From: a virus
Reading direction: 5' to 3' (one strand)
Length of the DNA stretch: 38,134 nucleotides
IMG/VR virus record: IMGVR_UViG_3300028920_000153
Coordinates: 1-38,134 of that record
The position numbers and the translations under genes were made by a program. Positions 3,202 through 21,932 of the stretch are shown here, piece by piece. Numbering within the stretch: the stretch's first letter is position 1; each line of letters opens with the position of its first letter. Under the pieces are notes generated by a model. The model was not told the origin of the DNA. It saw only the letters and a program-made list of their open reading frames with translations, and did no database searches.

Positions 3202-3395
3202 AAGAGAAAATAAAAGACATAAAAGAGCTTTATAGCAAAGCGATGGTACTCTTGGAGGGATGCAACGACACACTCCAGCAGGACGAGAAGCTATCGACCA
3301 TCAACACCAAGCTTGCAGGAGTGGTGAAAGACCTCAACGACATCATCATACGTGATACTACCGGGATACCTTTTAAAGCAGAGGAGGGGAAATGA
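3198..3395 (+). CDS. Small helical protein, function unknown
   Basis: 65 residues from the ATG at 3198, which overlaps the HNH stop; a TTG 36 bases upstream would lie wholly inside the HNH gene and is unlikely. It is predominantly helical and charged (MKEKIKDIKELYSKAMVLLEG, LSTINTKLAGVVKDLNDIII), with a short polar tail. No Cys or catalytic residues stand out. The stop overlaps the ATG of the adenine methyltransferase, so the two are co-translated. Confidence 0.7.
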   Translation: MKEKIKDIKELYSKAMVLLEGCNDTLQQDEKLSTINTKLAGVVKDLNDIIIRDTTGIPFKAEEGK

Positions 3396-4000
3396 TTACG
3401 CTTCTCAATATAGATTGCATGGAATATATGAAGGATGTACCTGATAAATACTTCGATCTGGCTATTGTTGATCCACCATATGGGATAAATATTAATTTAA
3501 ACATGGGACTTAAAAAAGGACAACGGAAAAGACATATTGAAAAAAAATGGGATTCCGTGATCCCAGGCAAGACATATTTTAATGAATTAAGGCGAATATC
3601 TAAGGATCAAATAATATGGGGAGGAAATTATTTTCCACTTGGCATATCTAGGCATGTTATATGGTGGGAGAAACATACTCCAGATGGGATGAGTTTTTCA
3701 GATGGAGAATTGGCATGGACATCATTTAATAAAGCAAACAGAAGTTTTAAATTTTATAATATTACAAATGATAAAATACATCCTACACAAAAACCCATTA
3801 AGCTTTATAAATGGCTTCTCAAGAACTACACTAAACCTGAGTTTAAAATCATAGACACTCATTTAGGCTCTGGCTCATCAGCCATTGCAGCTCATGACTT
3901 TGGTATAGCTGAGTTTGTGGGATGTGAGATTGATAAGGATTATTTTGAGGCTGCCAAAAAGAGATTTGAGGTTCATAAGATGCAACAGAAGCTATTTTAA
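3392..4000 (+). CDS. DNA adenine-N6 (or cytosine-N4) methyltransferase, beta-class order
   Basis: 202 residues. The catalytic motif IV, DPPYG, is at 27-31, right after the first strand; a short variable target-recognition part follows; then come HPTQKP (130-135) and the SAM-binding loop HLGSGSS (157-163) with a CEIDKDYFEAAKKR motif. Motif IV before motif I is the beta arrangement, shared by small phage N6-adenine enzymes of this HPTQKP type. It would methylate phage DNA against host restriction or mark it for replication or packaging. No cognate endonuclease adjoins it directly. The following intergenic region carries a strong promoter for a second methyltransferase. Confidence 0.93.
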   Translation: MITLLNIDCMEYMKDVPDKYFDLAIVDPPYGININLNMGLKKGQRKRHIEKKWDSVIPGKTYFNELRRISKDQIIWGGNYFPLGISRHVIWWEKHTPDGMSFSDGELAWTSFNKANRSFKFYNITNDKIHPTQKPIKLYKWLLKNYTKPEFKIIDTHLGSGSSAIAAHDFGIAEFVGCEIDKDYFEAAKKRFEVHKMQQKLF

Positions 4001-4177: not shown

Positions 4178-5260
4178 ATGGGTGAATTAGCAAAAATAGA
4201 TAGCTTTAGAAAAGAACTTGCTCTTGCAGAAACTATTGAACAAATAAAACTTATTGGTGATTCTGCTCAGGCATATCAATTTATATTAAAACGACAAGGA
4301 GCAAATAAAAATAAAATTGATGAGATAGGAGAATTTGATATTGAGGTTGAATGTAAAAAAGCCGAATGGCTCAATGAGTTTTATCCACATGGAATTAGAT
4401 CAGATCGTAGAGGTAACAAAACGGAACCTCTAAAAACTATGCCAGTAACAAAGAAGGAATCTGCAAGGGCAAAAAAAATAAATAAGTTCAAAAAAGAAAA
4501 ACCAAAGATATTTGAGAATATTAAAAACAAAATTAAGAATGATAAAAATATTACTTTAAGTTCAAAATCCATTGCTAAAGAAATTAATAAAGAAGAACGC
4601 AAAGAGAAGGATATTAAAAATACTAAGGAATATTTAAAAGAAGAAGCAATCATAAAACAAATTGATTGTCTTAATATTATAAATGAAATAGAATCCATAG
4701 ATTTATTGATTACTGATCCTCCATATTTTACGGATGGAGATTTCACAGAACACATATCAAAATATCTTAAAAAAGTAAAATCAACTGGACAGGCTTATGT
4801 TTTTATTGGGAATGAACCTGAAGAAGTATTGGCCTATATTAACTTAAATAAAGGAGAAATGATTTTAGAACAAATTCTTATATGGAATTATAATAATACA
4901 GGACAACGACAACCTAATACCAAATATACTTCCAATTATCAAATATGTTTATATTTTAGAGGCAAGGATGCATCAAATATAAACAAACCTGCAGATGGAA
5001 AAGAACAATATGCATGTCAAACTATGAATGCTCCAGATGGTAGAATTGGAAATAGATATCACAAATGGCAAAAACCAATCGAATTAATTGAGAGATTGAT
5101 TAAAAACTCATCTAATGAAGGTGATTTTATAGTTGACCCCTTTGCGGGTAGTGGTACAATAATTTTGACAGCAGCAAAATTAGGGCGTAAATCTATTGGA
5201 TTTGATATTGATGGTGAAGCAATTAAAATATGTATTGATAGGGGATGTGTTTATGAATAA
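4178..5260 (+). CDS. DNA methyltransferase with N-terminal helical/HTH extension
   Basis: 360 residues. Residues 1-110 form a Lys-rich helical domain with a KESARAKKINKFKKEKPK stretch, like the DNA-binding extensions of some phage/plasmid methyltransferases; 110-165 is a very basic linker. The catalytic domain follows: DPPY at 180-183, a target-recognition region, HKWQKPIELIERLI at 295-308 (the HPTQKP equivalent) and the SAM loop DPFAGSG at 320-326, with FDID near the end. The order IV then I is beta-class; the product is N6-methyladenine or N4-methylcytosine. The gene is visibly richer in A+T than its neighbours and has its own promoter, suggesting recent transfer. It overlaps the next gene by 8 bases, a gap-free pairing reminiscent of modification-restriction pairs. 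Confidence 0.9.
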   Translation: MGELAKIDSFRKELALAETIEQIKLIGDSAQAYQFILKRQGANKNKIDEIGEFDIEVECKKAEWLNEFYPHGIRSDRRGNKTEPLKTMPVTKKESARAKKINKFKKEKPKIFENIKNKIKNDKNITLSSKSIAKEINKEERKEKDIKNTKEYLKEEAIIKQIDCLNIINEIESIDLLITDPPYFTDGDFTEHISKYLKKVKSTGQAYVFIGNEPEEVLAYINLNKGEMILEQILIWNYNNTGQRQPNTKYTSNYQICLYFRGKDASNINKPADGKEQYACQTMNAPDGRIGNRYHKWQKPIELIERLIKNSSNEGDFIVDPFAGSGTIILTAAKLGRKSIGFDIDGEAIKICIDRGCVYE

Positions 5261-14413: not shown

Positions 14414-15832
14414 ATGAAAATTAAAGTTGGAGACAAGGAATATGAATTTAAACATATCAACATTCCTGAAGACCACGGGTTCGATGAAGAGCATCTCAAG
14501 TTCTTAAAGACTTTGGATGAGGCACTCGTCAAATCACGTGAGAACATCAGCAAAAAAGAGGATATTGACAAGGTCAAGGCTGATCTTGAGGCATCCCTTA
14601 AAGAGCTGAAGAGTGAGTTTAACTACGAGAAGATGCAGGAGCAGATCAACGCTATCTTCATCAAGCTGCATGAGTTCTCTCTTAATCCTGTTGGGATGAG
14701 TAAAGAAGAGAAGGCAAAGAAAGAACGTGAGCTTAATGCTCAGTGGGTACGTGCCTTAGTGAAAAAAGATGTTAAAGGGATGGAGAGTGTCGAGAAAGAA
14801 CTCAAGACACTTGAGCCTGTCATGCACTTAGGTCCTGCTACCGGACAATCGGCAGGTGACCTGGGTGAAGACTATACACAGGGTGGTTATCTTGTCCCTG
14901 ACCTGTTACTTGCTGAAGTAAACCGCTTCGTGACTGATGGCGGTGTGGCACGCAGGGAGTTCCGTTATCTGCCTTTCGCAGGTGCCGGTAACAGCAGGTA
15001 TATACCTACGTTGCTTACTAACGTAGTTGTTGACTGGGTTGATGAAGGTGAGAAAAAACCAAAGACAAAGCCTTATATCAGCCGGGTACAACAGACTTTG
15101 AAGAAACTGGCTGCTATGGTCATCTTCACTGAAGAGATTATAGAAGATACTGTTATTGATCTTACCTCGTTCGCTGCACAACTTATTGGCGAGGCTATCG
15201 CCGCAGAAGAAGATAATCAATTCTTCGCAGGAACAGGCGCACCGTGGACGGGTATCATCAATACAGCTGGTACAGTTGGACTGGCACTGGCTGCTGGTGT
15301 AGGACCTCTTAATATGCGTCCTGAATCACTGCTTGCCATGACAGTGGCTATACCTACGGGTGCAGTGCCGGGAGCTAAGTTTTACATGAACCGTCAGGTA
15401 TGGGCTGCTATCTCTGCTCGCAGAGCTGATGCAGTAGCTGAAGGTGATGCACGTGGTAATTATATTGTTCAGACACCGGGGCAGGGTTCACCAGGCAGTA
15501 TATGGGGATTCCCTGTTGTACTGACTGAAGCCATGCCTTCACTGGCTGACCTCTATGGCATTACTGACATGAGCGACATCGATCCTGACCTTACCTGTGA
15601 TGCTGATGAGCCGTTTATCATATTTGGTAATCTCTCCAAGTGTGTGGCTTATGGCGACAAGCAGGGATTGCGTATCAAGCTGCTCGACCAGGCAAGTGTA
15701 TATGATGATAATGATACACTGGTCAATCTTGCAGAGCAGGATATGATTGCTCTGAGGATACACAAGCGTGTAGGATATGTATGTATCCTTCCTGCTGGTA
15801 TCTGTGTCCTTTCAACCGGACCTACTTCTTAA
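14414..15832 (+). CDS. Major capsid protein, HK97 fold with N-terminal delta domain
   Basis: 472 residues. Residues 20-110 are a charged coiled coil (FLKTLDEALVKSRENISKKE... LEASLKELKSEF) acting as the fused scaffold or delta domain; processing probably falls near residues 110-140. The HK97 fold follows with GYLVPDLLLAEVNRFVTDGGVARREFRYLP, VQQTLKKLAAMVIFTEEIIEDT (E-loop/spine helix region), LIGEAIAAEEDNQFFAGTGAPWTGIINTAG, then WGFPVVLTEAMP and the C-terminal A-domain strands. It assembles the icosahedral head. A strong stem-loop lies right after the stop, suggesting that this gene's transcript is enriched over downstream genes. Confidence 0.96.
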   Translation: MKIKVGDKEYEFKHINIPEDHGFDEEHLKFLKTLDEALVKSRENISKKEDIDKVKADLEASLKELKSEFNYEKMQEQINAIFIKLHEFSLNPVGMSKEEKAKKERELNAQWVRALVKKDVKGMESVEKELKTLEPVMHLGPATGQSAGDLGEDYTQGGYLVPDLLLAEVNRFVTDGGVARREFRYLPFAGAGNSRYIPTLLTNVVVDWVDEGEKKPKTKPYISRVQQTLKKLAAMVIFTEEIIEDTVIDLTSFAAQLIGEAIAAEEDNQFFAGTGAPWTGIINTAGTVGLALAAGVGPLNMRPESLLAMTVAIPTGAVPGAKFYMNRQVWAAISARRADAVAEGDARGNYIVQTPGQGSPGSIWGFPVVLTEAMPSLADLYGITDMSDIDPDLTCDADEPFIIFGNLSKCVAYGDKQGLRIKLLDQASVYDDNDTLVNLAEQDMIALRIHKRVGYVCILPAGICVLSTGPTS

Positions 15833-15839
15833 TTTAACC

Positions 15840-15869
15840 GGGGAGGGTAACTCCCTCCCCTTATTTTAA
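15840..15869 (+). terminator. Stem-loop terminator or attenuator after the major capsid gene
   Basis: Perfect 8-bp stem GGGGAGGG / CCCTCCCC with a 5-base loop (TAACT), then TTATTTTAAT. The T-run is interrupted, so termination is probably partial, allowing read-through to the tail genes while keeping capsid mRNA abundant or stabilised at its 3' end. Confidence 0.75.
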
Positions 15870-15873
15870 TATC

Positions 15874-16215
15874 ATGAAAAAGAGAATAAAATTTCTAAAG
15901 CCGGTACAGAGTTATGACGTAGGATCAACGCATCGCATATCCTCACATTTTGCAGATAAGTTGATAGCAAGGGGTCAGGCTGTTGAGGTTAAGGATATAG
16001 TCGCAAAAGAGGAAAAGCATACCTATGAGACTAAAGAGGAGAAATTTACTCCATTTTATCCTACTAAAGAGAAGAAAGATTTTTCTATTACGGCAGTGAG
16101 TAAGATTGATTTTACAAGCCTCACGGATGAGGAATTATTGGATATTATTAAAAACGATCAGCGTAAGACAGCCATCAGGCTGGCACAGGAAGAGATAAGA
16201 AAACGTGGAAATTAA
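15874..16215 (+). CDS. Small structural-region protein, function unknown
   Basis: 113 residues. The N-terminus KKRIKFLKPVQSYDVGSTHRISSHFADKLIARGQAVEVKD forms a small beta domain resembling short proteins found after capsid genes. The middle is Lys/Glu/Thr-rich and probably unstructured; the C-terminus is a helix (LTDEELLDIIKNDQRKTAIRLAQEEIRKRGN) like a SAP-type or rho-N-type mini-domain, though I do not claim that family. It is the first gene after the stem-loop and overlaps the sugar cassette by 11 bases. Confidence 0.75.
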   Translation: MKKRIKFLKPVQSYDVGSTHRISSHFADKLIARGQAVEVKDIVAKEEKHTYETKEEKFTPFYPTKEKKDFSITAVSKIDFTSLTDEELLDIIKNDQRKTAIRLAQEEIRKRGN

Positions 16216-16972
16216 ACAGGTATATTTTAGTAGTGCAATAAGATTTTTTCAGCAGGGATTCTGCGATTACTGGTCTGTTGAACCTTATCATGATAAGGAG
16301 GAGCCTGCTATATTCTTTGGTATGTATAATGACAGGGATGTTGAAGCTATCAATAGTCATAACGGATTTAAGGTATTATGTCATACAGGAAGGGCTATGC
16401 CTGCTATTAAAAAGGTAATAGCAAAAGATGTGATACTGAAGTTAAGCCCTATGAATATTGAAGAATACAGGGTTGATCCCAATGAGTACAATAAATGTAT
16501 CAACGTAGCTTTCAAGACTAAAAAAGCCATGTTCCCTATTAAAGATTTCTCAATGTTTAAGCCTAATGAGCTTGGAGAAAACATATACTGCTATCTCGGT
16601 AGTGAGGGACGTAAAAAGATACTCGGATATGGTATGGTTAAGAAACTTGAAAGGCATACCAAGCATAAGATCATGATAGGTTTTCTTGGTGGCACTATTG
16701 AAGATACTAAGGTTAATTATTACGATAAGTGCTTTATCAATTTTAAGCCTTCAATAACCGCAGGCATAACTTCGGCTATCGAGCTTGGATATATGGGACG
16801 ATATACAATAAGCAATCTTAATGCTCCCTTTTGCAAGGGGTATAAGAATTTTGAGGCTATCATGGAACATATTGAAAGGGAGAGTAAGAAGATAGGCACC
16901 ATACAAAACTCTCTTGTCGATGGTTATTTTAATACGGGATCTGAATGGAAAAAAGTTGATTTCTGGCAATGA
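16205..16972 (+). CDS. GT-B-like glycosyltransferase (first gene of sugar cassette)
   Basis: 255 residues with a GTG start inside the preceding gene. The N-terminal half has Rossmann-like elements (EEPAIFFGMYNDRDVEAINSHNGFKVLCHTGRA), of the kind that begin several GT-B enzymes of surface-polysaccharide loci. The C-terminal half reads NIYCYLGSEGRKKILGYGMVKKL, IMIGFLGG and INFKPSITAGITSAIELGYMGRYTI, resembling the nucleotide-sugar-binding half of GT-B folds (glycine-rich turn, then Glu in AIELG). The best reading is a compact glycosyltransferase using a nucleotide sugar made or altered by neighbouring enzymes; donor and acceptor are unknown. It overlaps the epimerase gene by four bases. Confidence 0.68.
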   Translation: MEIKQVYFSSAIRFFQQGFCDYWSVEPYHDKEEPAIFFGMYNDRDVEAINSHNGFKVLCHTGRAMPAIKKVIAKDVILKLSPMNIEEYRVDPNEYNKCINVAFKTKKAMFPIKDFSMFKPNELGENIYCYLGSEGRKKILGYGMVKKLERHTKHKIMIGFLGGTIEDTKVNYYDKCFINFKPSITAGITSAIELGYMGRYTISNLNAPFCKGYKNFEAIMEHIERESKKIGTIQNSLVDGYFNTGSEWKKVDFWQ

Positions 16973-17931
16973 AAAAGGTCATCATCTTTGGAGCAACAGG
17001 GGGAATAGGTTCTTATACCGTTCTTGAACTTCTTAACGATTATGAGATAGTCGCAGTAGGGAGAAGGGACGATAATGGCTTCTTCAAAGAGCTTGGTGTT
17101 GAATATATACGTTGCGACATAACCCGTGATGATGATTATCTGAAGCTACCGGGTGATAAGTATGCTGTCATCAACCTGGCAGCTATGATGCCTGCACGCA
17201 TGAAAGGTTATGATCCGCAGCAATATGTTGATACACTATTAAACCTGAACATCTTTAATTATGTAGCCGGCTCAGAAAAGTATATCGGTTTTCAGAGTTT
17301 CTCCGATGTGTTTTACCTGTGGGGTAGGATACCTATACCGGCAGATGCAGAAAGCAGGTTCCCTCTGAATAACGATCATTCTGTTTATTCAATATGCAAG
17401 ACGGCAGCTATGAATATAGCCTCACATTATGCTGAGAAATGTTATTTTAAAAATTTCACCATCCGTCTGCCTAATGTATATATATATCATCCCAACCCTT
17501 ATTATTATCTCAATGGCAGGTTATTCTGGCAGAACTACCGTCTGATGATCGATAATGCCTGTCACGGAGAGAATATTGAGATATGGGGTGATCCTACAAT
17601 AGAACGTGATATTCTTTATGTGAAAGATGTTACAAGAGTAATAAAGCTATGCCTTGAATCAGATAAACCGGGTATATACAATGCAGGTACAGGAATAGGT
17701 ACTTCTTTGGAGAACCAGGTTAAAGGTATAGTAGAAATCTTTGGAGGCAGCTATTCATATAATTACGATAAGGATGATTATCCGACAGCAGGGTATATCA
17801 TGGACATCATTAAGACAAGATTGAATCTAGGTTATGTTCCAAGATATGATTATATCTCTTATCTGAAGGATTTTAAAGAAGAGATGAAGATTAATAGGTT
17901 TGAAAAGCTATGGGGAAAACCATTGCCATAA
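16969..17931 (+). CDS. NAD-dependent nucleotide-sugar epimerase/dehydratase (extended SDR)
   Basis: 320 residues. The Rossmann motif GATGGIG is at 8-14, a CDIT acidic turn near 49-52, INLAAMMP at the NNAA-equivalent position, an FQSFSDV strand carrying the Ser, and the catalytic Tyr140/Lys144 in YSICK. A C-terminal substrate-binding part follows (WGDPTIERDILYVKDVTRVI, GIYNAGTGIG), characteristic of GalE/RmlD-like extended SDRs. It would epimerise, reduce or dehydrate a nucleotide sugar in the cytoplasm. ATGA-coupled upstream; it overlaps the WbqC-like gene by 22 bases. The exact sugar cannot be told from sequence. Confidence 0.92.
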   Translation: MKKVIIFGATGGIGSYTVLELLNDYEIVAVGRRDDNGFFKELGVEYIRCDITRDDDYLKLPGDKYAVINLAAMMPARMKGYDPQQYVDTLLNLNIFNYVAGSEKYIGFQSFSDVFYLWGRIPIPADAESRFPLNNDHSVYSICKTAAMNIASHYAEKCYFKNFTIRLPNVYIYHPNPYYYLNGRLFWQNYRLMIDNACHGENIEIWGDPTIERDILYVKDVTRVIKLCLESDKPGIYNAGTGIGTSLENQVKGIVEIFGGSYSYNYDKDDYPTAGYIMDIIKTRLNLGYVPRYDYISYLKDFKEEMKINRFEKLWGKPLP

Positions 17932-18578
17932 TGCAAAGCAATTATATCCCGTGGAGAGGATATTTTGACATGATAAACCGTGTGGATGAGTTTATTATAT
18001 ACGACTGTTGCCAGTATACCAAGAACGACTGGCGCAACCGTAATATCATCAAGACACCACGAGGCACTCAATGGCTCACCATACCTGTATATCATCATCT
18101 TAGCCAGAAGATAAATGAGACGGTGATATCTGATAAGCTATGGAATGTAAAGCACTGGATAACTATTGAGCAGTTTTATAGGAATGCCAGTTATTTTAAA
18201 AGATATAAGAATTTCTTTAATGTTATGTATGCTACTGCAACATATAATTTCTTGAGTGAGATAAACCTGCATTTCATTAAGGGTATATGTGGATTATTAA
18301 ACATAACAACACCTCTGATTGATTCATCAGAACTTCATATCACTGGTGATAAGACAGAGAAGATAGTTAATATATGCAGGCAGCGTGGAGCTAATAGATA
18401 TCTCTCCGGTCCTGCTGCAAAAGACTATATAGATATGAATCTCATGAAAGGCATTGAAGTTGAGTGGATGAGTTATGATTATGATGAGTATAAGCAACTT
18501 TATCCGCCTTTCGATCAGAAGGTAAGTATTATTGATTACATATTTAACTGTGGGGTATATGAAAGACAACCCGTATAA
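17910..18578 (+). CDS. WbqC-like protein
   Basis: 222 residues. The start MGKTIAIMQSNYIPWRGYFDMINRVDEFIIYD followed by CQYTKNDWRNRNIIKTPRGTQWLTIPV is the diagnostic beginning of the WbqC family, found in O-antigen, capsule and nonulosonic-acid gene clusters. Later features also fit: WITIEQFYRNASYF, LHFIKGICGLL, and YLSGPAAKDYIDMNLMKGIEVEWMSYDY. Biochemistry is poorly defined; it is thought to act on sugar or glycan-precursor modification. The genes on both sides are sugar enzymes, agreeing with that role. It overlaps both neighbours, about 20 bases on each side. Confidence 0.93.
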   Translation: MGKTIAIMQSNYIPWRGYFDMINRVDEFIIYDCCQYTKNDWRNRNIIKTPRGTQWLTIPVYHHLSQKINETVISDKLWNVKHWITIEQFYRNASYFKRYKNFFNVMYATATYNFLSEINLHFIKGICGLLNITTPLIDSSELHITGDKTEKIVNICRQRGANRYLSGPAAKDYIDMNLMKGIEVEWMSYDYDEYKQLYPPFDQKVSIIDYIFNCGVYERQPV

Positions 18579-19161
18579 GATAGTGAAAATGTTTGAGGAG
18601 GAGGTTGCCTCTTATGCCGGATCGCCGTATGCTGTATCTGTGGATAGCTGTACTAATGCCCTGTTCTTATGTTGCAGGTACCTTGAGGTTAAAGATGTGA
18701 CATTGCCTAAGAAGACATATCTCTCAGTGCCAATGTCAGTGATACACGCAGGCGGTACAGTATATTTTAAAGATATCCAGTGGTCAGGACTCTACCAGCT
18801 ATCACCATATCCGATATATGATTCAGCTAAAAGGTTTACTGCTGATATGTATATCCCCGGTTCTTTCATGTGCCTTAGTTTTCATATTAAGAAACATCTG
18901 AAGATAGGCAAAGGTGGTATGATACTGACTGATAACTTCCCTGCTGTTGAATGGCTCCGTTGTGCTAGGTATGAGGGACGGCATGAGGTTAGTTATAAAC
19001 GTGATGACATACAGATGCTGGGATGGAATATGTATATGACACCGGAACAGGCGGCAAGGGGACTGGCATTGATGCAGAATATAGATAGATATAATCCCGA
19101 TCAGGATGAGGGTGACGGGGAAGGATATAGGGACTTAACAGAATTTACAATATTCAAATGA
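18559..19161 (+). CDS. Short DegT/DnrJ/EryC1-type sugar aminotransferase
   Basis: 200 residues from the ATG at 18559 (an in-frame ATG at 18532 would lie further inside the wbqC-like gene). It keeps the PLP-fold core: FEEEVASYAGSPYAVSVDSCTNALFLCCRYL at the N-terminus, IYDSAKRF with the Asp that contacts the PLP nitrogen, and SFHIKKHLKIGKGGMILTDN with the PLP-binding Lys112. A WLRCARYEGR region follows. Family members are usually 360-400 residues; here the C-terminal domain is missing, though no frameshift remnant is seen. Short forms of this kind pair with WbqC-like proteins. It may make an amino sugar or act as a PLP-fold partner with reduced activity. Confidence 0.85.
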   Translation: MKDNPYKIVKMFEEEVASYAGSPYAVSVDSCTNALFLCCRYLEVKDVTLPKKTYLSVPMSVIHAGGTVYFKDIQWSGLYQLSPYPIYDSAKRFTADMYIPGSFMCLSFHIKKHLKIGKGGMILTDNFPAVEWLRCARYEGRHEVSYKRDDIQMLGWNMYMTPEQAARGLALMQNIDRYNPDQDEGDGEGYRDLTEFTIFK

Positions 19162-19165
19162 AGAC

Positions 19166-19261
19166 ATGGCAGATATAGATGGTAAGATGACAGTTATTAA
19201 TATAAATATGAGCAGGGTGTATCATCAATACCGTGCCACAAGACAAAGAAAGAGATTATGA
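19166..19261 (+). CDS. Candidate 31-residue ORF before the glycosyltransferase
   Basis: ATG four bases after the previous stop, encoding MADIDGKMTVININMSRVYH and a strongly basic end (RATRQRKRL); its stop overlaps the next ATG. The gap-free packing fits the operon's style and supports translation, at least as a coupling peptide for the large gene downstream. No family is recognised, and 31 codons can be open by chance. Confidence 0.4.
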   Translation: MADIDGKMTVININMSRVYHQYRATRQRKRL

Positions 19262-21492
19262 AACATATCTTAATTACACGGCTCTGGTTTGATTCCATCA
19301 CATTGATGGATAAATATATTGATGTTGCACTAAAGACATTTATACCTGCTTTAAGATCGCAGACCTGCAAGGATTTTGAGTTTGGCATATTATGTAAGGC
19401 AGATCATGTTGATTATATCAAGAAACGTATAGGTATGGATTTTACCCCTTTCACGGGTGGCATAGAGCAGTTCCGGGAAGAGGCTAATAAAGGACAATAT
19501 ACTTTACAGAGCCGTGTTGATATTGATGACTGGATAGCACCAGGTTATATAGCAGAGATACAGAAGATATATAAGGCTAACATAGACAAGTATGATTCAT
19601 TTGTGATATTTGCACAACCCGTCAAGATGCTATGGCCTTCAAAAACACTGGAACAGGTGGCTCCTTATCATGAGAGACGGATAAGTATGTTTGCCACACT
19701 ATGCCAGAAGAATCCTAAATATCCTATCTATAAAGGCTCTCACGGGGCGTTGTGGAAATATGCCGATAAGGTATTTAAGCTGCCTGATGGTATGGCTCGC
19801 TGGGTACAGCATAAAAATAGTGTTACCAATGCAAGGCTTAAACGTAAGGGAATAACAAAAGTAGGCAATATGCAATTATATGACGAAGATCATAATTGGA
19901 TCAGTGAGCGTAATACCGATCCGGTTATTAACATCCTGACACGCACTTTTAAACGTCCTAACAGCTTTAAAGTTTGCAGGGATAGTATTCTTTCACAGAC
20001 ATACATAAAAGGAGAGGGCAAGTTCAATGACCGGTCAATGAAGATCAACCATATAGTAGGATCAGAGGTTGAATGTCCGTATTATCCCGATGCTATCAGG
20101 CTGACAAAGAAAGAGGGTAAGTTCCTACCGTGGAACCTGCATCTTAATGACCTGGGTAAATATGTCAAGACAGGCTGGGTCATGTATCTTGATGATGATG
20201 ATAAGTTTATGAGTCCTACTTCCTTGCAGGAGATAGTCGATGAGATAGATAATGAGAACCAGCTTTTAATATGGAAGGTACAGATTAATACATGGACGGC
20301 TCCTAATGATAAGCATTTTGGCAAGGTCATCAAAAAAGGACAGGTATCGGGTATAGGCATACTATTTCATTCAAAGCATCTGCCCGTCCCGTGGAAAGCT
20401 ATGCCGGCAAGTGATTTTAATGTTATTGACTACCTGTCAAAGAAACTTGAAGTCAAATGGGTAAATAAGATTCTTACAGGGATACAGGGCAAGAGCAATA
20501 ATCATGGTCGTGTGCCTGCTATTGAAGTAAAGAATCCTAATCTTAAAAAGATAGAGATAATAGAAAATAAAGATATCAAAACAGGGCTGGTGAGCGTTGG
20601 CACCCCTACCTGGAATAACAGGGATATCTTCTGGCTGTCTATTGAGAGCCTATGCCGCCAGGAGACAGAAACACCGTGGGAATATATTGTTCATGAATGC
20701 CCGGGCGACCTGTCTATCGGTGAGGATTATCTTAACAGCTATAAAGACAGGCTCAAAGATGCAGGATGCCAGAGGATAGTATATATCAATAATGGTCGCA
20801 GGGTCAACCTGTCAACCAAATGGAAGCAGATAGCATCTAAGGCGCGTGGTGATATACTCATCCTGCATGATTCTGATGACTATACACATCCGGGGAGGGT
20901 GCAGTGTACTGTTGACCTGATAGGTGATAAGCCGTGGTATGATACACGTTTTGCATGGCATTTCTATATCAAGGATCGCAAGCTCATCCTGTATGATTAT
21001 CGCATTACACATAAACAGTGGAAGACAGGCTTTAATATAGCCCTTCGTACTGATATTGTAAGGTCAATGCCCGATCCTAAGATCAATAAAGGTATACATA
21101 AATGGATGAGCGGATATGTTAAAGATAAATACATAGATCAGGCTAAATATGCCTGTGTAGCTACTACCGGAGCTAATACAGTAAGCCTTAATCGTGTAAG
21201 ACATTTTAGTCATCCGCAGCCTCCTTTTGTTAAGACTGACAAGACAATCTTTGACATAGGGTTACCTATTGATATTATTGACAGATTATTGAAAAATAAA
21301 ACTGTCTCAGGTCTTGAGGTACACCGCAGGATGGAAAAGATAGAAGTTGAGTTTTTAAAGAGCTATGCCAGGTTGTATAAACAAGGTGAGCGTAAGAAGA
21401 TACCTTACCCTGCTTATCAGAGGTTATTACAGAAAGGTCATGTAAGAGCTGTCAATGAAGAGGTTTTAGAAGCAATAAATATAGAGCTATGA
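19258..21492 (+). CDS. Three-domain glycosyltransferase fusion
   Basis: 744 residues with three GT-A-like modules in one chain. Module 1 (about 1-215) begins KHILITRLWFDSITLMDKY and has SRVDIDDWI at 85-93, resembling the putative rhamnosyltransferase family (PF11316-like). Module 2 (about 222-420) begins PVINILTRTFKRPNSFKVC with YLDDDDKF at 310-317. Module 3 (about 442-640) begins GLVSVGTPTWNNRDIFWLS with LHDSDDY at 536-542, a family-2-type acidic motif. Each therefore has its own metal/nucleotide-sugar motif. The C-terminal ~100 residues are basic and helical. Such a fusion could build a short oligosaccharide processively on one acceptor. No membrane segment is present, so it acts in the cytoplasm. 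Its stop overlaps the head-tail connector gene, so it is co-translated with virion proteins. Confidence 0.88.
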   Translation: MKHILITRLWFDSITLMDKYIDVALKTFIPALRSQTCKDFEFGILCKADHVDYIKKRIGMDFTPFTGGIEQFREEANKGQYTLQSRVDIDDWIAPGYIAEIQKIYKANIDKYDSFVIFAQPVKMLWPSKTLEQVAPYHERRISMFATLCQKNPKYPIYKGSHGALWKYADKVFKLPDGMARWVQHKNSVTNARLKRKGITKVGNMQLYDEDHNWISERNTDPVINILTRTFKRPNSFKVCRDSILSQTYIKGEGKFNDRSMKINHIVGSEVECPYYPDAIRLTKKEGKFLPWNLHLNDLGKYVKTGWVMYLDDDDKFMSPTSLQEIVDEIDNENQLLIWKVQINTWTAPNDKHFGKVIKKGQVSGIGILFHSKHLPVPWKAMPASDFNVIDYLSKKLEVKWVNKILTGIQGKSNNHGRVPAIEVKNPNLKKIEIIENKDIKTGLVSVGTPTWNNRDIFWLSIESLCRQETETPWEYIVHECPGDLSIGEDYLNSYKDRLKDAGCQRIVYINNGRRVNLSTKWKQIASKARGDILILHDSDDYTHPGRVQCTVDLIGDKPWYDTRFAWHFYIKDRKLILYDYRITHKQWKTGFNIALRTDIVRSMPDPKINKGIHKWMSGYVKDKYIDQAKYACVATTGANTVSLNRVRHFSHPQPPFVKTDKTIFDIGLPIDIIDRLLKNKTVSGLEVHRRMEKIEVEFLKSYARLYKQGERKKIPYPAYQRLLQKGHVRAVNEEVLEAINIEL

Positions 21493-21932
21493 AAATAACA
21501 TTTACAACCGATATTACTGAGGAGCCTGTAACACTCGAAGAGGTTAAAAAGGCACTAAGGATAACAGGCACCGGTCATGATGATGACCTTGAGACTATGA
21601 TATCCGATGCACGTACATACATAGAGAAAGCACTCGATATGTCAGTATCGGAACGTGAGATAGAGGTAGTCTCTGATATAGAGCTGGAAGAATGGGAGCT
21701 GCCTTTCGGTCCTGTCTCTGACCTGGAGGATGAATACGCAGAGGATGATTATGGTAATTATGTATATACATATACTTACACAGGAGGCAATGAGGACTGC
21801 CCGGCAGATGTTAAGAGGCTCATCATCATGCTTATCAAGTTCTGGTTTGACATAGATGATCTGGCAGTGCCACTACCGGGAGAGATAAGAAGACTTATAC
21901 AGGCTAACACCCGTCAACCAATGGCATTATGA
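21489..21932 (+). CDS. Head-tail connector (gp6-like)
   Basis: 147 residues. The opening EEPVTLEEVKKALRITGTGHDDDLETMISDARTYIEKALDMSV is the typical four-helix start of the phage gp6-like/YqbG head-tail connectors, which form a ring below the portal. An acidic, Tyr-rich stretch (EDEYAEDDYGNYVYTYTYTGG) replaces the usual short strand region, and CPADVKRLIIMLIKFWFD is the conserved final helix. It resumes the morphogenesis order interrupted by the sugar cassette and is ATGA-coupled on both sides. Confidence 0.9.
   Translation: MKITFTTDITEEPVTLEEVKKALRITGTGHDDDLETMISDARTYIEKALDMSVSEREIEVVSDIELEEWELPFGPVSDLEDEYAEDDYGNYVYTYTYTGGNEDCPADVKRLIIMLIKFWFDIDDLAVPLPGEIRRLIQANTRQPMAL

Follow-up and report, generated by a model that had tools for sequence, protein, structure and literature searches.

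The IMG/VR record IMGVR_UViG_3300028920_000153, analysed here over its whole stretch of 38,134 nt (the window), carries five genes for sugar enzymes just upstream of its head-tail connector gene. These probably form a virion-glycosylation module within the head operon, in which one constant glycosyltransferase (GT), GT744, is combined with exchangeable sugar enzymes and a head or neck protein would serve as the acceptor. The record has the gene order of a siphovirus, i.e., terminase, portal, MuF-like protein, protease, HK97-type major capsid protein (MCP), connector, and tail genes. An earlier note on this DNA had described a GT-B-like protein, an extended-SDR epimerase, a WbqC-like protein, a short DegT-type aminotransferase, and a triple glycosyltransferase lying between the MCP and the gp6-like connector. 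All five open reading frames (ORFs) are present at that place and the cassette does precede the connector, but the gene for a small protein of 113 aa (g113) stands first, so that the cassette is situated between g113 and the connector.

The constant glycosyltransferase GT744

GT744 (744 aa, 19258–21492, + strand, as are all genes of the locus) consists of three GT-A-like units (about residues 1–185, 216–421, and 444–677) and a C-terminal domain of 55 aa. Each unit has an invariant Asp-rich motif (D88-D91, D312-D315, and D538-D541), in agreement with the earlier description of a triple glycosyltransferase. The third domain matches PF00535 (GT2) with 48.1 bits against a cut-off of 23.3 (E 1.7e-12), while domains 1 and 2 are assigned by motif and fold only. 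The structure model of the whole protein is of low confidence (predicted local distance difference test, pLDDT, 68), and statements are therefore made at the domain level only. A weak fold match was to Mimivirus R699.

Scans of IMG/VR with the MCP, GT744, and the connector yielded a clade of about 20 contigs. GT744 lies immediately before the connector gene in all 19 contigs that cover the site (window included), and the GT744 stop and the connector start share the sequence ATGA in 17 of the 17 junctions read. Chance or a chimeric assembly as the source of the locus is ruled out by the recurrence of this junction in 18 further contigs. The identity of GT744 across the clade is 57–73%, a conservation equal to that of the MCP, and its ratio of nonsynonymous to synonymous substitution rates is 0.05–0.10 in three pairs. 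GT744 is under strong purifying selection and is a core gene of the lineage. Beyond the clade, no tblastn match to GT744 was found in 50,697 phage records, and a search of GTDB genomes for a host by way of prophages retrieved no relative of GT744 and only remote ones of the MCP (23–32% identity).

The C-terminal 55 aa of GT744 (21310–21489) were aligned to the N-terminal domain of g113 (15874–16010) by hhalign. This was the best of 98 windows and scored higher than 200 of 200 column shuffles; with a pairwise E value of only about 0.01, a copy of the g113 domain at the end of GT744 is suggestive only.

Exchange of the accessory genes

The five genes are not kept together at this position: GT744 alone is constant, and the genes before it are freely swapped. 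In the minimal member of the clade, contig L048, GT744 stands by itself between g113 and the connector, while in L044 the slot between g113 and GT744 holds a duplicated third GT domain. The slots of L009, L012, L043, and L052 hold GT2 and sugar-binding DXD-type transferase proteins, those of L002 and L047 a GSCFA protein and FkbM-like methyltransferases, and that of L040 a methyltransferase; two further proteins are conserved but match no Pfam family. The earlier note had spoken of an inserted cassette, and this needs some correction. Relatives of GTB255, the first cassette protein, are found in many, not all, clade members (very diverged, at 21–48% identity), but GT744 is a core gene, and SDR, WbqC, and DegT genes were found in no other clade member. 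The divergence of GTB255 does not follow that of the MCP (r 0.20, P 0.13), whereas that of GT744 does (r 0.65, P 0.001; without a near-duplicate, r 0.47, P 0.005).

If the gap between the MCP and connector genes were simply a place where moron insertions are tolerated, the genes in it might share the timing of the operon and have other roles in host takeover. The accessory genes do turn over fast, and L010 and L047 have homing endonucleases inserted nearby, between MCP and g113. Against this, the genes between g113 and GT744 are nearly all glycan-related in about 14 contigs, and a distant relative has non-homologous glycan genes in the equivalent slot; GT744 itself is the constant gene, and strong purifying selection acts on it. 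We consider such a moron site quite unlikely.

The distant relative in question, L159 (portal 30% and connector 29% identical), has between MCP and connector a GT11 fucosyltransferase-like gene (E 1.5e-15), a GT-B gene, an FkbM-like gene (sub-threshold), and two further ORFs, and its glycan genes are non-homologous to the GT744 cassette. No glycan enzyme was seen in the same gap of L153, as judged by eye. In more remote relatives (MCP 36–46% identical), Pfam detected no glycosyltransferase among ten proteins downstream of the MCP, and a GT2 search of 17 remote-relative records gave matches in only 2, both upstream of the MCP gene.

Relatives of GTB255, WbqC, SDR, and DegT occur together, along with a hexapeptide transferase and NeuB, in L064, L120, and L125. 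The glycan cluster of L064 (3010–14797), flanked by head-protease and baseplate genes, contains the hexapeptide transferase, NeuB, a UDP-sugar dehydrogenase, and a half-size DegT, as well as a Maf/MptE-like protein that scores below Pfam's cut-off. This gene content suggests nonulosonic-acid-like chemistry in these three phages and is only a hint of it for the phage analysed here.

Enzymes of the cassette

Adjacent starts and stops in the cassette overlap by 4 to 22 nt, with the sole exception of the DegT gene and GT744. The earlier statement that the genes overlap each other and the connector gene is thus mostly accurate, including the ATGA of GT744 and the connector, but DegT and GT744 are 96 nt apart. 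That spacing is occupied by a 31-codon ORF (19166–19261), possibly a translational-coupling leader, whose end shares ATGA with GT744 and which was not seen as a conserved gene.

GTB255 (255 aa, 16205–16972) has no Pfam or PHROG match and no tblastn match in the 50,697 phage records. Its AlphaFold model (pLDDT 87) retrieved GT-B glycosyltransferases by Foldseek (E 4.6e-5), which bears out its earlier naming as GT-B-like, and relatives are found in 64 IMG/VR loci. Phage glycosyltransferases often glucosylate DNA, and in structure GTB255 also weakly resembles T4 beta-glucosyltransferase (rank 13, E 6e-3); moreover, in contig L056 (2468–7880), immediately upstream of TerL, relatives of the middle of GT744 and of GTB255 are neighbours of genes for thymidylate synthase and dCMP deaminase. 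These observations would suit enzymes that modify phage DNA (hypermodified bases), which is nevertheless very improbable here. No base-hypermodification gene was present among the left-side proteins searched (a recombinase, SSB, HNH, and two N6/N4 methylases; not every ORF was searched), the genes are located with that of the connector, and a protein glycan is the better fit for sugar pathways that can be exchanged and for the methyltransferases and GSCFA proteins.

The next two enzymes match Pfam families above the curated cut-offs, as the earlier assignments would lead one to expect. The SDR protein (16969–17931), an extended nucleotide-sugar epimerase/dehydratase, matches PF01370 with 83.5 bits (cut-off 20.9, E 2e-23) and has both the GxxGxxG and the YxxxK motif; its closest solved structures are UDP-sugar epimerases. 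The WbqC family protein (17910–18578) matches the whole domain of PF08889 with 241.7 bits (cut-off 21.3, E 1e-71), and searches for its mechanism retrieved no solved relative and no useful paper. None of the cassette proteins has a membrane segment (maximum 19-residue hydropathy 1.54).

A half-size DegT family

The fourth gene (18559–19161, with ATG 18559 as the preferred start) encodes a pyridoxal phosphate (PLP) aminotransferase of 200 aa, here called mini-DegT, which is closest to the PseC and LegC types. It matches PF01041 with 81.1 bits (cut-off 19.8, E 1.2e-22) and keeps the PLP lysine K112 (invariant in 7 of 7 aligned sequences), D88, and the phosphate-loop residue T32, so that a short DegT-type aminotransferase was correctly recognized. 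Full-length DegT/DnrJ/EryC1/StrS proteins have about 370 aa with a C-terminal domain; the mini-DegT family is without that domain and without an internal segment, but it retains the PLP lysine and the aspartate, with Ser or Thr in the phosphate loop. A broken gene is ruled out by the occurrence of the half-size family, with the catalytic lysine kept, in at least 583 IMG/VR viral loci, the best 80 of which are 56–72% identical (carriers include L160–L238). The 78 complete viral relatives have 197–253 aa (median 208), and mini-DegT lies within 10 kb of a GTB255 relative in 40 of 57 loci. In 299 bacterial genomes of one phylum (not Bacteroidota), no half-size DegT was found, the partial matches being in frames of at least 309 aa, and a literature search for half-size DegT proteins in phages returned nothing. 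The family appears to be viral and very widespread, and it is the most unusual part of the locus.

Candidate acceptors

The divergence of GT744 correlates with that of the portal, MuF-like protein, protease, MCP, and g113 (r 0.44–0.82, all P < 0.02; for the MuF-like protein, r 0.82, P 0.001) and more weakly with that of tail genes (major tail protein (MTP), r 0.25, P 0.06; g151, r 0.24, P 0.13). In L052 (7697–10115), a diverged tail module (MTP 29% and g151 27% identical) follows right after the connector, and the head genes and GT744 are retained. Together, these comparisons give a modest lean toward a head protein as the acceptor.

Two sequence features were considered as acceptor sites. A conserved C-terminal T-G-x-x-S motif of the MCP was rejected, since relatives in which GT744 was not found have it as well. 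The highly conserved KxxKxxxxTKEEKxxP linker of g113 is strongly conserved in the clade, yet the linker is altered in L010 and L012, and this candidate was likewise set aside. As g113 was found only in the clade, its absence elsewhere is no test of an acceptor role.

Flanking genes, expression, and host

Upstream of the cassette, the MCP (472 aa, 14414–15832; PF05065, E 3e-38) is 56–77% identical in about 13 IMG/VR relatives. It is followed by g113 (15874–16215), a conserved gene whose product has a weak DUF7302/phrog_2616-like N-terminal domain. A homing endonuclease gene is located between MCP and g113 in L010 (11399–12412, GIY-YIG with NUMOD3) and in L047 (1126–1971, a related protein). Downstream lies the gp6-like head-tail connector gene (Ad1, 21489–21932; PF05135, E 3.7e-9; phrog_442). 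On the left side of the window are two N6/N4 DNA methylase ORFs, one at 3392–4000, which matches only the end of the profile, and one at 4178–5260, in a low-GC region.

A sequence scan revealed a strong terminator-like hairpin with a T-rich tail directly 3' of the MCP stop (15840–15860), ahead of the cassette. Stable hairpins also occur here in 14 relatives, the position being kept while the sequence differs. The hairpin is likely an expression attenuator; the cassette and connector would therefore probably be made by read-through, at a level below that of the capsid. Such a level suits enzymes, and their timing would be late.

Shine-Dalgarno sequences of the GGAG/GAGG type precede only 3 of 34 starts. 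TerL is closest to those of flavobacterial phages and the portal to those of Cellulophaga phages, and the host probably belongs to the Bacteroidota.

Comparison with other phages and known systems

The cultured Cellulophaga phage phi18:1 (NC_021790), whose portal is 30% identical, has a similar siphovirus-type head operon of a Bacteroidota phage, with a methyltransferase and a glycosyltransferase gene between the MuF-like and protease genes, an arrangement as in Corndog. In contrast to the window, its MCP gene leads straight into Ad1, and BLASTP shows no similarity between its glycosyltransferase and GT744. In Corndog, the genes between portal and protease encode an O-methyltransferase, two glycosyltransferases, and a GlcNAc-transferase (PMC4351075), and glycosylation of the capsid and tail tube in Che8, Corndog, and Myrna has been reported by Freeman et al. 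2023, as cited in PMC12363180 and PMC12619734. These phages resemble the present one in that their glycosyltransferase genes lie within the virion operon or close to it. They differ in slot and host group, GT744 and GTB255 are not homologous to their glycosyltransferases by tblastn, and in the present phage one constant triple glycosyltransferase is coupled to the connector and accompanied by a sugar pathway. Furthermore, glycans are reported on their virions, whereas here they are predicted from gene content. PBCV-1 and Mimivirus encode their own sugar pathway (4,6-dehydratase and PLP aminotransferase) and glycosyltransferases for virion glycans (PMC4691112). The likeness to these eukaryotic viruses is one of function, besides the weak match of GT744 to R699.

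Proposed function and significance

Decoration of the virion, as the earlier note had proposed, is the best-supported reading of the locus. The ATGA coupling, the absence of membrane segments, and the way GT744 tracks the head proteins all argue for it, as do the unrelated glycan genes that L159 and phi18:1 carry in or near the head operon; the acceptor and the glycan we infer. GT744 is translationally coupled to the connector and so would be produced as heads are finished. GTB255, SDR, WbqC, and mini-DegT would make an activated sugar and add sugars, with the presence of SDR and DegT pointing to an amino- or deoxy-sugar nucleotide. Transfer onto a virion protein would be the task of GTB255 and GT744 and would take place in the cytoplasm. 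In relatives, replacement of the front enzymes by other glycosyltransferases, methyltransferases, GSCFA, or further proteins would yield lineage-specific glycans. The acceptor would most likely be a head or neck protein, i.e., the MCP, g113, or the connector, and the benefit may be an altered surface, shielding, or adhesion.

Several observations weigh against virion glycosylation. With the terminator-like hairpin standing between the MCP gene and the cassette, the enzymes may be poorly expressed compared with the capsid; the lean toward head over tail proteins is modest, being drawn from 10–11 contigs with a partial correlation of 0.32 versus 0.22; the MCP motif offers no acceptor signature; and a glycan on the virion is predicted from gene content. 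In addition, the mini-DegT cassettes of the phages immuto and S-SCSM2R are outside the visible structural gene blocks, and the enzymes therefore need not act on virions. This last point would also fit enzymes that late in infection alter the host surface glycan or nucleotide-sugar pool and block re-adsorption of progeny or superinfection, and the SDR, WbqC, and DegT types are indeed typical of O-antigen and capsule loci. We regard a host-surface role as unlikely, however. The gtrABC seroconversion cassettes of temperate phages, which likewise bring phage-borne glycosyltransferases, need a membrane flippase and membrane glycosyltransferases, whereas the present cassette encodes neither a membrane protein nor a flippase or polyprenyl-phosphate enzyme. 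Its constant gene, GT744, is the one coupled to the connector, and in the minimal member L048 it stands alone.

Virion glycosylation by the module could be framed more specifically, although we offer this tentatively and as something short of probable, as a modular virion-glycotype locus. It would comprise a constant docking or capping enzyme, GT744, whose C-terminus may share the g113 fold, together with freely exchanged cassettes that would confer on each phage a coat glycan of its own, and a virus-specific mini-DegT, which may be a fold-type I PLP enzyme of unusually small size. Phage virion glycosylation is already known; the constant-plus-variable architecture in this lineage is new. The half-size DegT family is a tractable enzymology question in its own right. 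If the proposed function is true, virion glycosylation would reach beyond mycobacteriophages to an uncultured lineage whose hosts are probably Bacteroidota, with a locus built like a surface-antigen locus, from one constant enzyme and swappable sugar genes, and whether and why phages vary their coat glycans would become testable.

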